From Pectobacterium brasiliense (GTDB lineage Bacteria; Pseudomonadota; Gammaproteobacteria; Enterobacterales; Enterobacteriaceae): 64,000 nt of DNA. The notes beneath the pieces were generated by a model that searched no databases, was not told where the DNA came from, and saw only the letters and a program-made list of their open reading frames with translations. Positions 24,925 through 40,840 of this stretch are shown piece after piece. Both the position numbers and the translations under genes were made by a program. The DNA lies in assembly GCF_016950255.1 (NCBI RefSeq), contig NZ_JACGFN010000001.1, positions 1,612,001 through 1,676,000 on the forward strand, in the 5' to 3' direction. Each line of letters begins with the position of its first letter. Position 1 is the stretch's first letter.

Positions 24925-25808
24925 AGCTAACTCCAAATCAGGAAAATGGTTAAAAAGATTTTTATCGCTCATCAACCGATATGAATCAGAAAATTCACAC
25001 CATGAAACAAGTCACTTCTCCCTAGCGTTCACATTTCACCGAGTTGAAAACTCAAAAACCACGCTAACTCATCGGCTAAATGCCGAGAATATTTAGCATT
25101 CTCGCTATATTTATTAATATAATTTTTCATTCTGAGACTAAACGCACCTATTTTTATAGATATAAGTATTTTAATCATAGAGTTGCAAGCGAATGCGCCG
25201 CCGCCCGCGTCATGCGGGCGTTGGCATGGGTATGTCATTAGGCGAAAAGGCAATTTGAACGCAACTTCATTTTATTCTTTAACATCAAAAGAATAAAACC
25301 ATCTCTTATAGATCCCCATCGATTCAGCTGCAAATGGTTATAATTACTATTTCCATTTATTAAGAATATTCCCGCGAAATGTTACAAATTTTCAACTCTA
25401 TAAAACATTATCTTTTGTACGCGTTTTAATTCCCCACGAATAGTAATGAGCCATTACGCGATCTTTATTCTTCACAAACAGAAGCCTGCTTTTAATTACA
25501 ATTGAAACAAACCATAAAATAAAAAGCAAATTCATAAAAAATGAAACGCTGTTATAAATAAATATCCGCAACTCTATTAAGGGAATGTGCGCGTAATCTC
25601 AAACGATAACATAATCCCTACTCATTATAGGGAGTTTAGTATCAGCAGAGATGTTTTCGTTTTCTGACTTACCTCGCATTCCACACACTCTTGATTTACG
25701 CATCCTTACCGATACGAGTTTCTCCCGATGTGAGTGTCTGTTATTATTAACAGATAAGTGGGTGAAATATTACACCATACCATTAGGAATCAAGAGGTTA
25801 TTCAATTC
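24925..25808. other. Long AT-rich intergenic region between the chemoreceptor and fldA
   Basis: About 880 bases between divergent genes, with no open frame I would accept. It must hold both promoters. An isolated GC-rich hairpin, CGCCCGC/GCGGGCG, stands at 25202-25220 in otherwise AT-rich sequence. The chemoreceptor gene interrupts the usual ybfE-fldA neighbourhood, so part of this spacer probably arrived with it. Confidence 0.5.
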
Positions 25809-26336
25809 ATGGCACTCATCGGAATATTCTTTGGCAGTGATACTGGCAACACTGAAAACATCGCCAAAACGATTCAACAGCAGTTAGGCACCAACGTCGC
25901 TGATGTTCATGACATCGCCAAAAGCAGCAAAGAAGACCTCGAAGGTTTCGATATTCTGCTGCTGGGTATTCCAACCTGGTATTACGGTGAAGCTCAGTGC
26001 GATTGGGATGACTTCTTCCCGTCGCTGGAAGAAGTGGATTTCACAGGAAAATTGGTTGCCCTGTTTGGCTGCGGCGATCAGGAAGACTATGCAGAATACT
26101 TCTGTGATGCCATGGGCACCATCCGTGACATTATTGAGCCTCGCGGCGCGACGATTGTCGGCCACTGGCCAACAGAGGGCTATTACTTTGAAGCCTCTAA
26201 AGGGCTCGCCGACGACAATCACTTCATCGGCCTGGCTATCGATGAAGACCGTCAGCCTGAACTGACCAGCGAACGCGTAACAACGTGGGTGAAACAGATC
26301 AGCGATGAGCTGAACCTGAAAGAACTGGTTGGCTAA
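25809..26336 (+). CDS. fldA: Flavodoxin 1
   Basis: FMN-containing electron carrier, 175 residues (E. coli 176), reducing partners such as radical-SAM enzymes and biotin synthase. It begins MALIGIFFGSDTGNTENIAK; the FMN phosphate loop is GSDTGNTE, and the 50s and 90s loops are PTWYYGEAQCDWDDF and FGCGDQEDYAEYF. AAGAGG lies 10 bases before this ATG; the open frame extends 17 codons further up. It is followed by fur 331 bases on, as in E. coli. Confidence 0.97.
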   Translation: MALIGIFFGSDTGNTENIAKTIQQQLGTNVADVHDIAKSSKEDLEGFDILLLGIPTWYYGEAQCDWDDFFPSLEEVDFTGKLVALFGCGDQEDYAEYFCDAMGTIRDIIEPRGATIVGHWPTEGYYFEASKGLADDNHFIGLAIDEDRQPELTSERVTTWVKQISDELNLKELVG

Positions 26337-36802: not shown

Positions 36803-36877
36803 TGGGGTATCGCCAAGCGGTAAGGCACCGGATTCTGATTCCGGCATTCCGAGGTTCGAATCCTCGTACCCCAGCCA
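36803..36877 (+). tRNA. glnV: tRNA-Gln(CTG); integration target
   Basis: 75 bases including CCA, anticodon CTG (36835-36837). From tRNA position 27 to beyond the 3' end its sequence is repeated at 40727, so this gene is the attachment site of the downstream element. The gene stays intact because the element restores the 3' part. Confidence 0.95.
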
Positions 36878-36942
36878 AATAAAGCTGGTAAAACAGCAAA
36901 GAAACGGGGCGACAGTCGAAAGATGTCGCCCCGTTTTCTTAT
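36829..36942 (+). repeat. attL: 114-bp direct repeat, left copy
   Basis: Matches 40727-40840 with only two differences (36924 T/C and 36938 C/G). It begins at the 5' side of the anticodon stem of tRNA-Gln(CTG), runs through the 3' end and takes in the operon terminator. The repeats are 3,898 bases apart and define the ends of the integrated element. Confidence 0.93.
36902..36938 (+). terminator. Terminator of the tRNA operon
   Basis: AAACGGGGCGACA (36902-36914) pairs with TGTCGCCCCGTTT (36924-36936), a 13-bp stem, followed by thymines. It lies wholly inside the att repeat, so a second copy exists at the right end. Confidence 0.9.
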
Positions 36943-37614
36943 ACGTGGCGACAAAAACGTTAACACTCATCCTACTGTTACTCCCCTTCTCTGTTTTGAA
37001 TACTAAGATCCCCCCTCAATAGGCGGAAACAACACTCTACTCTTCTACTTGGCTCCAAGCATTTCCCTAAAGCTCGTCAGAAAGCCATAGCGCCACGCAA
37101 GATAAATTCCTAAGCCCCAGACGATGCGCTACCACATCTCGCGATACTAAGCCCCTGAGTGCGTTTCACGCTAAGTGAAGAATCCCCTGTATCCAACGTA
37201 TGTCAAAATCCTACCTGGAAGTGATTCGGGAGGACTCCCCGTTCTTGTCATGATCGTAGTTCGCAGATAAGCCTATTTTTCATACGAATACCAAAAGAAT
37301 TGAAATTGTAATATTCAGAAACATAGGGCATCATTTGCAGCCAAGCACGATTTAAAGCGTATGTTCTTCAAAACTGAATTTCTGGCTGACGTGATTGTTG
37401 TACCCGTTAAATGCGATCATGTCTAAGTTTGATGAAGTAACAGATAGAAAGTGGCTGGTTGAGATTGAAGGTAAAACAAGCGTCCGCGATCTGACCCGTA
37501 TCCCTGTAGGCAAAGTGCGCGTTAGCTAGGTTGGTATGGCGTTTGATCGCGGGATTGATAAGATTGGTGTTTTATCGAAAGTAACAACTATTATTTTAAA
37601 TAAGGAATGTTTTA
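36943..37614. other. Left arm of the element, no assignable gene
   Basis: About 670 bases of roughly average composition, unlike the AT-rich cargo that follows. On both strands open frames are short and broken. The longest with a proper start are ATG 37361-37426 (21 codons) and an overlapping ATG 37419-37529 (36 codons, starting MSKFDEVTDRKWLVEIEG), whose frame resumes after one stop as VGMAFDRGIDKIG. This looks like a decayed gene. A small TTCAC/GTGAA inverted repeat is near 37170. Promoters for the cargo must lie at its right end. Confidence 0.5.
37419..37529 (+). pseudogene. Short open frame, probable gene remnant
   Basis: A 36-codon frame from ATG, overlapping the end of another short frame (37361-37426). 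The residues KWLVEIEGKTSVRDLTRIP look protein-like, and after a single TAG the same frame continues for about 25 codons. I do not recognise the family. It could be a real small protein, but a broken gene is more likely. Confidence 0.2.
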
Positions 37615-37935
37615 ATGGCTGAAACGTTATTGGCTGATGAATTAAAAAATAGAGTAGATAATTTACTAGAAAACAGCATGTTAGATCTTAATACGCATAG
37701 AATTCTCACCTCTTTACTTGATAATCACAAATTTGATGCTGTAGATAATATAATAAATACTATAATAAAACATACAGATACATCTAATAAAAAAAACATC
37801 ATTAACCATAAAGAGAACATAAACGAAAACTTAATAAATAATAAAAAAATATTATTACTTTCACAGGAAAATGCAAGTCTTGCGGAGATACAAAAAAATC
37901 ATATAAAAGAAATGGGGGAAACGTTAAGATTATAA
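37615..37935 (+). CDS. Unassigned coiled-coil protein, probably the N-terminal part of a split gene
   Basis: A 106-residue, very AT-rich frame starting MAETLLADELKNRVDNLL, with AAGGAA seven bases before the ATG. It is helical, with many Asn, Ile and Lys residues; from about residue 80 it turns into a coiled-coil-like stretch (ENASLAEIQKNHIKEMGE) and then stops. The frame one base back stays open past this stop and continues the same lysine/glutamate-rich helix into the next gene without a start codon. A one-base loss near the five-guanine run at 37914-37918 would explain this. I know no homologue. Confidence 0.6.
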   Translation: MAETLLADELKNRVDNLLENSMLDLNTHRILTSLLDNHKFDAVDNIINTIIKHTDTSNKKNIINHKENINENLINNKKILLLSQENASLAEIQKNHIKEMGETLRL

Positions 37936-38033
37936 AAGAAAAAGAAAAAGAAATTAAAAAAATTACTGAGGAGAATAAAGAACTAAAAGAAAAAACACAG
38001 CAATCCAGGATAGACGATAATATATCTGGCTAT

Positions 38034-38555
38034 GTGGATTCTGTAAAAAACAAACTTAATTCAGATGATAAATTTTTTATAAAAATGTCTCACGTTTGGT
38101 CTAGTTGTGGCGCATTATTTTGCATAGGGGCAATTGCAGCAGCATTTTGTACATTCGTATCTGGCATCGATACGCTTTTAAAAAATGAAGAATTGAACTC
38201 AGTAAGTATATTTTACTTATTTACACGTGGACTATTAGGGATCGGCTTGCTTTCATGGCTTTCCTACATATGCTTTAACAATTCAAGACGATACACTCAC
38301 GAATCAATTCGGCGAAAAGACCGCCAACATGCGTTGATGTTTGGGCAAATTTTCTTACAGATTTTTGGCGGCACAGCTTCAAAAGAAGACGCGATCCACG
38401 TATTCAAAGATTGGAATATGTCCGGTGATACTGCATTTTCTGGAAAAACAGAACAGCCTCCATCCGTTCATGGATTGTTAGCACAGATAAAAAATATGTT
38501 GCCAGAAAAATCTGGCAAGGCTAGTGATTCAACTAAAAAAGAAGATAATAACTAA
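38034..38555 (+). CDS. Unassigned two-span membrane protein
   Basis: 173 residues if read from GTG 38034, which has no ribosome-binding site. The frame is open back beyond 37920, encoding a KEKEKEIKKITEEN-type coiled coil, so this is probably the C-terminal part of the gene starting at 37615. Membrane spans lie at about 21-43 and 59-82. The cytoplasmic tail has a basic, aromatic segment (RRKDRQHALMFGQIFLQIFGG) and ends in a polar KKEDNN. It is followed after 18 bases by a second membrane protein gene with its own AGAGG. Function unknown. Confidence 0.6.
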   Translation: MDSVKNKLNSDDKFFIKMSHVWSSCGALFCIGAIAAAFCTFVSGIDTLLKNEELNSVSIFYLFTRGLLGIGLLSWLSYICFNNSRRYTHESIRRKDRQHALMFGQIFLQIFGGTASKEDAIHVFKDWNMSGDTAFSGKTEQPPSVHGLLAQIKNMLPEKSGKASDSTKKEDNN

Positions 38556-38573
38556 TAAAAGGGAAGAGGTTTT

Positions 38574-39530
38574 ATGTCGTTTCGCTGGTTAAAATTAGAT
38601 GAAAGAAGACTATCACAACAATGGATTTTTAGATTAGCAATAGCCATACCGTTTTCAATAAGTTTCTTATTGTGTATTCCATTATGGTTTGAAACCACCT
38701 TCGATTTCTCATCTACTGGATATGCGAAATTCCTTTCGATATTTTCATTACCTATAGGTGTGTTGTCTTTATCTATTCCTCTGGTTGCTATTGTGGCTCA
38801 TATACATAGGACTATTCAAACAGAGAAACAAATAAATCTTATAAATCAGAAAAACACAAGCGATAAATTTTACGCACATTACAAATATATCACAGATTCA
38901 TTTTCATCAATAAAAAGCAGCAATATAAATTTAAATGGGAAGGAAGTTATAATAGAGATATCAAATGTTAATTCGTTATATCGGGATTTTTTCCCAAATT
39001 CATCCCCCGAAAATGGAACTGTTATAAAACAAAAATCAGTTCATACGATAAAAATATTTAAATCACTTAACGAAATAGACAAAGAGTTATATAAAATAGA
39101 ATATGAAAGAAGTGATAAGTCTGATCCAAATTTTGTACTTTTTAATATTTTAAACGAAATAATATCGTTATCTAGTAATTTAAGCATCGACATACACAAG
39201 ATAATACCAACTGAGAACACTAGAAAATTATTGCTTATGAAGAATGATAAGAAATTCAAGATGATCACTTGTTTTCTAGATGAAGCGGAATTAAAGAACT
39301 ATTTGAAATGTATATATGTTATAAATATTACCATCATGGATTTATTAGATATAAAATTCGATTATTATCCTAGTCTTTCTAATTATGCACTTAGTAATAA
39401 AAAATATCATTTCACATCATCTTTTGACGTCATGAAAAAAACAAATGAGCCATATCACTCTTTCGATATAGGAGATGGCGCCTTTACATCAGAAGAATTC
39501 GACGATTTTAATTCATATTTAACCCAATAA
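38574..39530 (+). CDS. Unassigned two-span membrane protein with a soluble C-terminal domain
   Basis: 318 residues, AGAGG (38565-38569) just upstream. Two membrane spans (about 18-38 and 53-76) come first, followed by a helical linker (TEKQINLINQKNTSDKFYAHY) and a 220-residue AT-rich, charged cytoplasmic domain with no motif I can name. The layout (two spans, then a helix carrying a conserved-looking F-Y-x-H-Y) resembles, in outline only, membrane proteins annotated as putative phage abortive-infection proteins. It is transcribed with the preceding frame. Base use differs strongly from core genes. Partner of the upstream membrane protein in a two-gene module (inference). Confidence 0.7.
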   Translation: MSFRWLKLDERRLSQQWIFRLAIAIPFSISFLLCIPLWFETTFDFSSTGYAKFLSIFSLPIGVLSLSIPLVAIVAHIHRTIQTEKQINLINQKNTSDKFYAHYKYITDSFSSIKSSNINLNGKEVIIEISNVNSLYRDFFPNSSPENGTVIKQKSVHTIKIFKSLNEIDKELYKIEYERSDKSDPNFVLFNILNEIISLSSNLSIDIHKIIPTENTRKLLLMKNDKKFKMITCFLDEAELKNYLKCIYVINITIMDLLDIKFDYYPSLSNYALSNKKYHFTSSFDVMKKTNEPYHSFDIGDGAFTSEEFDDFNSYLTQ

Positions 39531-39628: not shown

Positions 39629-40615
39629 ATGGCAGTTCGTAAACAAGCATCAGGAAAATGGCTGTGTGAGTGCTACCCGCACGGACGTGAAGGCAAGCGG
39701 GTACGCAAGCAATTTGCCACTAAAGGTGAAGCCGTCGCCTTTGAACGCTTCACCATGGAACAAGCAGAAAACAAGCCGTGGACAGTAGAGAAACGCGACA
39801 CGTGTAAGCTGTCTGACCTGATTGATGTGTGGTACCGCGCCCACGGCATTACGCTGAATGATGGCGAAGGCAGAAAGAGTATTCTGGATTGTGCCGGCGC
39901 CTCATTGGGCGATCCTGCCCGTGATTTCTCCGTATACCGTGAAAAGCGGCTCAACGGCGAAATATCTCACAATGGCCGTGAGGCAAAAATCAGCCCTACC
40001 ACCGTTAACCGTGAATTATCGTACTTTAGGGCGCTGTTCAACGAGCTGGCGCGACTCGGTGAATGGAACGCAGCGAATCCGTTAGAAAGCGTGCGACCGT
40101 ACAAAACCTCTGAAAGCGAAATGGCCTTTTTACAAAAAGACCAGATCGCCAGGCTGCTGCACGAATGTGAAGCCAGCAAGGCCAAAGACCTGTTATTGAT
40201 TGTTAAGCTGTGTCTGTCTACCGGTGCGCGTTGGTCAGAAGCAGAAGAATTAACCCGTTTTCAGCTTTCCCCCTACCGCGTGACGTTTACCAAAACCAAA
40301 GGCAAACGTAACCGTACCGTGCCGATCAGCGAAACGCTGTATAACGCACTTCCAAGGAATAACGGGCGATTGTTCAGCGGCTGCTATAATGCATTCAGGA
40401 AAGCAATGGAACGGGCTGATATTGTGCTACCTGCTGGCCAGTGTTCTCACGTTCTGCGCCATACGTTTGCCAGCCACTTTATGATGAACGGCGGCAACAT
40501 TCTGGTGCTGCAACGCATCCTCGGCCACACCGATATTAAGATGACAATGCGTTATGCCCACTTCAGCCCCAACCATCTGGAAGACGCACTACGCCTGAAT
40601 CCGCTGGCTTCCTGA
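39629..40615 (+). CDS. int: P2-type tyrosine integrase
   Basis: Site-specific recombinase for the element, 328 residues. The N-terminal arm-binding domain (MAVRKQASGKWLCECYPHG) and a SAM-like core-binding domain precede the catalytic domain with Arg in STGARWSEAEEL, Lys in KTKGKRNRTVP, HVLRH, GHTDIKMTMRY with the nucleophile tyrosine in MRYAHF. All catalytic residues are present. Around residue 95 (GDPARDFSVYREKRL) it appears a few residues shorter than P2-like relatives as I recall them. Its base composition is near that of the core, unlike the cargo. It is adjacent to attR. Confidence 0.95.
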   Translation: MAVRKQASGKWLCECYPHGREGKRVRKQFATKGEAVAFERFTMEQAENKPWTVEKRDTCKLSDLIDVWYRAHGITLNDGEGRKSILDCAGASLGDPARDFSVYREKRLNGEISHNGREAKISPTTVNRELSYFRALFNELARLGEWNAANPLESVRPYKTSESEMAFLQKDQIARLLHECEASKAKDLLLIVKLCLSTGARWSEAEELTRFQLSPYRVTFTKTKGKRNRTVPISETLYNALPRNNGRLFSGCYNAFRKAMERADIVLPAGQCSHVLRHTFASHFMMNGGNILVLQRILGHTDIKMTMRYAHFSPNHLEDALRLNPLAS

Positions 40616-40726: not shown

Positions 40727-40840
40727 CGGATTCTGATTCCGGCATTCCGAGGTTCGAATCCTCGTACCCCAGCCAAATAAAGCTGGTAAAACAGCAAAGA
40801 AACGGGGCGACAGTCGAAAGACGTCGCCCCGTTTTGTTAT
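40727..40840 (+). repeat. attR: 114-bp direct repeat, right copy
   Basis: Second copy of the sequence at 36829-36942. It holds a 49-base 3' piece of tRNA-Gln(CTG) (40727-40775, starting in the anticodon stem) and a full terminator hairpin with one changed base next to the loop. This is the original chromosomal 3' end displaced by integration. The tRNA fragment is not functional. Confidence 0.93.
40800..40836 (+). terminator. Displaced original terminator of the tRNA operon
   Basis: The same GGGGCGAC/GTCGCCCC stem as at the left end, intact apart from the change at 40822. It now stands between the integrase and the downstream gene. Confidence 0.75.

Follow-up and report, generated by a model that had tools for sequence, protein, structure and literature searches.

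Two membrane-hairpin protein families in the repressor-integrase slot of a decayed P2-like prophage of Pectobacterium brasiliense, with a probable role against phages

AbiC proteins possess one or more N-terminal membrane spans followed by a cytosolic part, and the nuclease domain of the phage defence protein SNIPE is of the GIY-YIG type. From P2-related, K139-like phages of Vibrionaceae, Rousset et al. (2022, PMC9122126) describe a defence hotspot between the cI and integrase genes. The locus studied here resembles this cI-int hotspot, as portrayed there, in that high-turnover accessory genes, known defence genes included, are found between repressor and integrase, but it differs from it in residing in Enterobacterales instead of Vibrionales, in harbouring two undescribed families, referred to as A and B, and in belonging to a decayed prophage. 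The P2 hotspots of E. coli reported by Vassallo et al. (2022, PMC9519451) likewise exemplify that P2-like prophages carry small defence loci; in that account, however, hotspot 1 is situated between the replication endonuclease and portal genes and the second one at the fun locus, not between the repressor gene C and the integrase gene int. SNIPE/PD-Lambda-1, as described in PMC13190303, provides membrane-anchored phage defence, and a PD-Lambda-1 homologue is present in the C-int slot (L360 cluster, six loci), yet SNIPE harbours DUF4041 in addition to its nuclease domain while A and B show neither. Finally, PdpSau of S. aureus prophages causes abortive infection with membrane polarity changes and is, by the description in PMC10127798, a prophage accessory protein with an N-terminal membrane helix and a cytosolic C terminus; unlike A and B, it has a single TM helix and sits, according to the same source, in the lysis module.

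The window, i.e. the whole stretch of 64,000 nucleotides analysed, contains a 3.9-kb remnant of a P2-like prophage at tRNA-Gln(CTG) (36803..36877, + strand, assigned by ARAGORN), the last member of a tRNA cluster upstream of the element. A repeat search reveals a flanking 114-nt direct repeat, whose copies attL (36829..36942, +) and attR (40727..40840, +) are 98% identical with a spacing of 3898 nt. On the + strand the repressor C remnant, gene A, gene B, the P2-type integrase gene and attR follow one another in this order. Of the P2-type repressor C merely the C-terminal third, interrupted by an in-frame stop, is left (37425..37601, +; tblastn and translation); it shares 83% identity over 59 residues with one prophage repressor (tblastn, E 2.4e-25) and is matched by 64 of 67 C proteins in tblastn. 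The end of the C homology is separated from the start of gene A by 13 nt, gaps of 9 to 14 nt being common in the prophages examined. The P2-type tyrosine integrase, recognised by family matches, is encoded by an intact ORF of 328 aa (39629..40615, +) adjoining gene B, as the preliminary description of this DNA had stated. The P2-type integrase and the att repeats at a tRNA gene mark the element as a P2-like prophage, the co-oriented upstream C repressor being represented by its remnant only. From attL to the C remnant there is about 0.5 kb of DNA, for which no ORF for replication or structural genes is listed, and no promoter-like site is seen on the + strand upstream of gene A. The G+C content amounts to 0.34-0.37 over 37-40 kb compared to about 0.48-0.55 in the adjoining kilobases, in agreement with the AT-richness of the cargo pointed out before. 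A second AT-rich stretch of the window lies at 25001-26000 (G+C 0.377). Among the named homologues, those nearest to B and A come from Pectobacterium and its relatives.

Gene A is present in two frames. Its first piece (37615..37935, +; 106 aa), identified as an ORF and by means of full-length relatives, comprises the head and a variable coiled coil and ends at a stop codon. The remainder lies in another frame which is open to 38555 (37926..38555, +; ORF listed from GTG 38034, 173 aa), with homology to phrog_2628 starting at 37926, and contains the end of the coil, the TM hairpin and a conserved C-terminal domain. Since the frames differ here while all 30 aligned A relatives are single ORFs of 303-356 aa, gene A must be considered broken in the window. 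Either decay or an assembly error in an A-rich tract accounts for the break. The 173-aa piece (P0078) is represented by two member sequences on six contigs, which hints at a real break, though these may be copies of one assembly. The coiled-coil protein with two membrane spans announced in the preliminary description hence exists intact in relatives but not as one ORF in the window.

In members of the A family, a head and coiled coil of variable sequence make up the N-terminal region; they are followed by a membrane hairpin of two helices and by a C-terminal domain that is highly conserved. The mean pairwise identity is 0.17 for residues 1-120 versus 0.79 for residues 223-285 (39 distinct rows, as P0098 was entered twice in the alignment). 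The 3' piece of the window shows a dN/dS of 0.085 to the same-genus genome G013 and of 0.091 to G024 (ubiF: 0.063), while the first piece, 28% identical to its counterpart in G013, yields about 1.04 over 102 codons and shows no constraint. For whole A, the comparison of G013 with G024 gives 0.33. The 3' piece matches phrog_2628 at 9e-62, a group whose PHROG function label reads unknown. No Pfam family exceeds its cut-off for the A pieces of the window or for ten A members scanned, and no useful NCBIfam family is obtained for the pieces. PADLOC gives no useful match to them (best rows E 0.023 and 0.032), its 2TM effector model attaining 0.032 at best, and no SLATT family is hit at E<=1 by the A piece or at E<=0.1 by the ten members. 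The predicted structure of A is helical (pLDDT 74, pTM 0.39) and, at this pTM, matches no PDB entry at E<=0.001.

Gene B (38574..39530, +; 318 aa; phrog_17460) is intact and begins 18 nt downstream of the preceding ORF, as described before. Its product features an N-terminal TM hairpin and a cytosolic domain: hydropathy detects two hydrophobic spans (windows 16-43 and 50-81), followed by a cytosolic part of about 220 residues, and the structural model agrees, which bears out the domain layout initially proposed; the topologies of A and B given here are derived from hydropathy, charge and models. AlphaFold2 predicts a confident mixed alpha/beta fold for the cytosolic domain (pLDDT 89, pTM 0.72), for which no match at E<=0.001 is found in PDB or BFVD, so that the structural check suggested in the preliminary description delivers a confident model for B but no known fold, and for A a helical one. 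With 65 proteins related to B at E<=0.001, and with the phrog_2628 match of the 3' piece of A, both A and B can be regarded as genuine families beyond chance. As in A, the membrane part of B is the conserved one, with an identity of 0.63 in the hairpin (residues 17-92) versus 0.24 in the cytosolic part (residues 116-318; 41 rows). PHROG 17460 likewise bears the function label unknown, and B itself is matched by no family of Pfam, NCBIfam or PADLOC; together with the results for the A pieces this agrees with the earlier view that the proteins are undescribed. Neither A nor B contains a known effector or sensor motif, just as no known catalytic motif had been noticed before. One B homologue, P0051, passes the cut-off of the eukaryotic TM-domain model PF10192 over its TM part.

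An affiliation of B with AbiC/putAbiC (PF16872) was considered in view of the shared layout of membrane span(s) followed by a cytosolic part, and of the UniRef name of the B homologue P0060, which begins "Phage abortive infection pr". Family matching does not support it, as none of 41 B members matches PF16872 at E<=0.01; hhalign assigns a probability of 0.2, obtained against a poor alignment of five rows. The abortive-infection likeness of B noted in the preliminary description is therefore not borne out at family level. Besides, one record contains two tandem B genes with a 4-nt overlap (L038:8817-10957) plus a third B directly after an integrase gene. The B hairpin may reach past tailed phages, since a Vibrio phage assigned to Tectiliviricetes encodes a weak relative (62 bits) next to a repressor of the LexA type (L012:5860-6933).

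The genomic neighbourhoods of both families were inspected in 98 IMG/VR loci, 58 with B and 40 with A, retrieved by family scans built on short peptide patterns; as IMG/VR consists of viral contigs, the counts lean towards prophages. B stands beside a P2-type integrase gene in 52 of its 58 loci (33 of 37 if one locus per 90% cluster is counted), 11 times in the order C-B-int and 41 times in the order int-B, often with a 4-nt overlap. The remaining six comprise three contig ends (L025, L028, L071), L031, and two loci with B located away from int (L038, L040), the former harbouring a B directly after int as well. B itself is in two pieces in L050, and B relatives occur with no P2 integrase in the stretch covered in L014, L015, L157 and L159. 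For A, C is found upstream in all 40 loci and int downstream in 38, the contigs of L085 and L086 ending ahead of int. The C-A gap measures -68 to 81 nt in 39 loci; in L115 a 160-aa ORF is interposed. A is the sole occupant of the C-int slot in 30 of the 40 loci and is followed by another gene in six, namely by a KAP NTPase gene in L078, L084, L111 and L115, by a PD-T7-4 homologue in L110, and by a PDC-M11A homologue plus a small ORF in L099. A reverse-transcriptase-type insertion is present at the A locus of L087 and L088. Two E. coli records are annotated in the order CI - hypothetical protein (A) - integrase, and two such A genes have near matches in 24/5426 and 7/5426 E. coli genomes, respectively. 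In none of the 98 IMG/VR loci do A and B occur together. Hence, they do not form an obligate pair, and the candidate two-component module of the preliminary description is not supported as an obligate one. The roles of "coiled-coil partner" and "anchored effector" find no direct support either, and A is broken here.

The C-int slot was further surveyed in 160 integrase-anchored loci, near-duplicates included, made up of two sets: the best 80 of at least 598 candidates closest to the integrase of the window (at most 64% identical to it) and the best 80 of 346 candidates obtained with the L017 integrase as second query. Among the window-type integrases (best 80 of at least 598) no C is found in three loci, 62 show a gap of less than 150 nt and 15 a slot ORF, which means that the slot is closed in 62 of the 77 loci having C; neither A nor B is encountered in this set. 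Among the L017-type integrases (best 80 of 346) a slot ORF is present in 55 loci, a gap of less than 150 nt in two, and a longer gap with no ORF of 80 aa in 23; B is found in seven of these 80 loci, A in six and both in none. Since B is present at L017 itself and each of the 13 A/B loci of the survey is a contig already contained in the A and B sets, the survey reports on turnover in the slot and not on independent co-occurrence of A and B.

The other slot proteins of at least 120 aa fall into 24 clusters. PADLOC, run on the slot genes alone of 20 of these clusters, matches 11 at E<=1e-5 and nine not at all. The matches are to PDC-S20 (twice; 7e-181), PD-Lambda-1 (7e-120), PD-T7-4 (8e-76; on one contig alone, L110 = L319), NsnA/PD-T4-2 (2e-62), a TIR effector (1.6e-8), PDC-M34B (1.3e-8), WYL (4e-9), AriA/Old-like, PDC-M11A and PDC-M18A; no fewer than two of these matches (L309, L250) are weak ones or hit a regulator domain. 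The KAP NTPases, which are hit by the PDC-S20/PifA models, are likewise found in this slot, in four loci immediately downstream of A; they are P-loop NTPases and show no similarity to A or B. With genes located between repressor and integrase whose turnover, in relatives as well as within the genus, includes known defence genes, the slot acts like a hotspot of defence genes within one lineage of integrases, the L017 type. A 160-aa protein with no PADLOC match recurs with KAP NTPases in L301, L318, L321, L322, L324, L325, L115 and L371, mostly directly before KAP, where A stands elsewhere. A further candidate is a two-gene slot pair (L295, L344, L347, L350, L352, L357) encoding proteins of about 350 aa and of 200-226 aa with hydrophobic stretches, for which PADLOC yields no match either.

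The tRNA site is present in all 25 same-genus genomes. The gap to the right flank amounts to 0-34 nt in 17 and to 624-966 nt in three of them, while in G000 (the window), G004, G008, G013 and G024 the right flank is beyond reach; all five carry P2 remnants. In the window B and int are open beside the broken A. In G013, A and B are both open and 20 nt apart, while C and int are broken. G024 harbours A followed by a TIR-like protein (PADLOC TIR effector 6.6e-8; Pfam Nuc_deoxyrib_tr merely 0.027), with C reduced to a fragment and int in pieces. In G004 fragments of C and int enclose the gene of a 572-aa protein that matches AIPR (8.5e-46). G008, in which more prophage-type ORFs are retained at the tRNA site, possesses a 160-aa protein together with a KAP protein (1.4e-214 to that of L115), C being open and int in two pieces. 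Slot genes thus remain open beside a decayed C and/or int in G013, G024, G004 and G008. Adjacency of A and B, the subject of the co-occurrence check recommended at the outset, is observed in two of the 25 genomes (that of the window and G013) and, over all the loci inspected, in Pectobacterium alone.

Distant proteins whose N-termini differ from that of A also contain its hairpin and C-terminal part. In an order-level relative (L075:1417-2337, - strand) and on a Sinorhizobium plasmid (L122:3497-4429), both outside the prophage slot, a TIR domain is fused to the A-family hairpin and C-terminal domain (TIR_2 4e-21 and 9e-16, respectively), and in Vibrio europaeus (L120) an MgtE_N match (4e-8) precedes an A-type membrane part. 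Eleven aligned sequences share ten invariant positions (W162, G166, E230, R237, H239, A240, G244, F264, W267, N268), and the conserved motif of the domain reads ES..(D/E)R.HA..(F/Y)G....F..WN. A circular 9111-bp record (L118, Klebsiella p1878-9k) combines a P2-type replication/lysogeny module with a repressor, A and a group II intron protein but no annotated integrase; it may represent either a prophage in plasmid form or an artefact of assembly.

We consider it probable that A and B are separately exchangeable lysogenic-conversion proteins with anti-phage activity at the inner membrane, carried by a decayed P2-like lysogeny module. Most likely they are two distinct membrane-hairpin proteins, serving superinfection exclusion or abortive infection, whose sensing parts in the cytosol vary. 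This reading is suggested by their location, by the company of defence genes, by slot genes staying open beside decay, and by the split between conserved membrane and variable cytosolic parts. In an intact lysogen, the transcript of the repressor gene would also yield A and/or B, given that C, A, B and int share one orientation, and both would be inner-membrane proteins whose two termini lie in the cytosol. Their rapidly diverging cytosolic part, i.e. the N-terminal coil of A or the C-terminal domain of B, would meet a component of the incoming phage, upon which the conserved hairpin, in A together with the C-terminal domain, would respond by blocking DNA entry or disturbing the membrane. In the window genome B alone might still be able to act, unless the break of A is an assembly error. 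Against this reading stand the unconstrained first piece of A, the break, the lack of a promoter-like site and of a known effector or sensor motif, the mostly closed slot of window-type integrases, the nine slot clusters and the window proteins with no (useful) PADLOC match, the B model with no solved counterpart, and the B relatives found with no P2 integrase. Of the anti-phage-type layout proposed in the preliminary description, the setting, with known or candidate defence genes in the slot of relatives, has held up, but not the obligate two-component module.

A role of A as the constant membrane sensor of a modular platform is a minor possibility: its variable coil would read the phage, and the hairpin and motif domain would signal to an adjoining effector, be it B, a TIR-like protein, a KAP NTPase, PD-T7-4 or PDC-M11; in distant relatives the effector is part of the same chain (TIR-2TM-A domain). 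While the evidence speaks against A+B as an obligate system, a looser arrangement with several effectors served by A would be compatible with it. Somewhat less probable is a true two-component complex with A as sensing or anchoring partner and B as effector. The two genes do lie adjacent on the same strand, 18 nt apart in the window and 20 nt in G013, and A and B homologues on contigs of equal size (P0001/P0084, 2777; P0004/P0080, 4678; P0010/P0071, 3946; P0006/P0070, 124811) suggest that further contigs may carry both A and B; yet a complex is difficult to reconcile with their complete separation in the IMG/VR loci, where A is alone between C and int in 30 of 40 and B alone in 11, with other genes following A in G024 and in six IMG/VR loci, and with B being still open beside the broken A.

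That A, and perhaps B, regulates lysogeny maintenance or induction in concert with C and int appears improbable. The fixed position next to C or int, the conserved C-terminal domain of A and the strong purifying selection on its 3' half would fit such a regulator. However, the C-int gap is shorter than 150 nt in 64 of 157 integrase-anchored loci (best 80 of at least 598 plus best 80 of 346) and is elsewhere filled by unrelated genes, many of them defence-like; moreover, slot genes of the genus are open beside decayed C and/or int, and relatives of the membrane and C-terminal part of A exist outside the slot, fused to TIR. It is very improbable that the genes are neutral prophage leftovers. Although little of C is left, gene A is disrupted and no more than 3.9 kb of the element persists, B is open over 318 codons with a dN/dS of 0.32 to G013 (at a dS of 1.2, which is near saturation), and A is open at the same site in two other species, with a dN/dS of 0.09 over its 3' half.

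Two membrane families of enterobacterial P2-like prophages, hypothetical proteins in most annotations, thereby acquire a role that can be tested, and small contigs suffice to search the C-int slot of Enterobacterales for additional anti-phage genes. The survey of the genus, in which cargo genes at one tRNA are open beside a decayed repressor and/or integrase, offers a view of the route by which defence genes of prophages may turn into genes of the host. The domain that A shares with TIR proteins, in turn, would tie a prophage protein to bacterial immune signalling.
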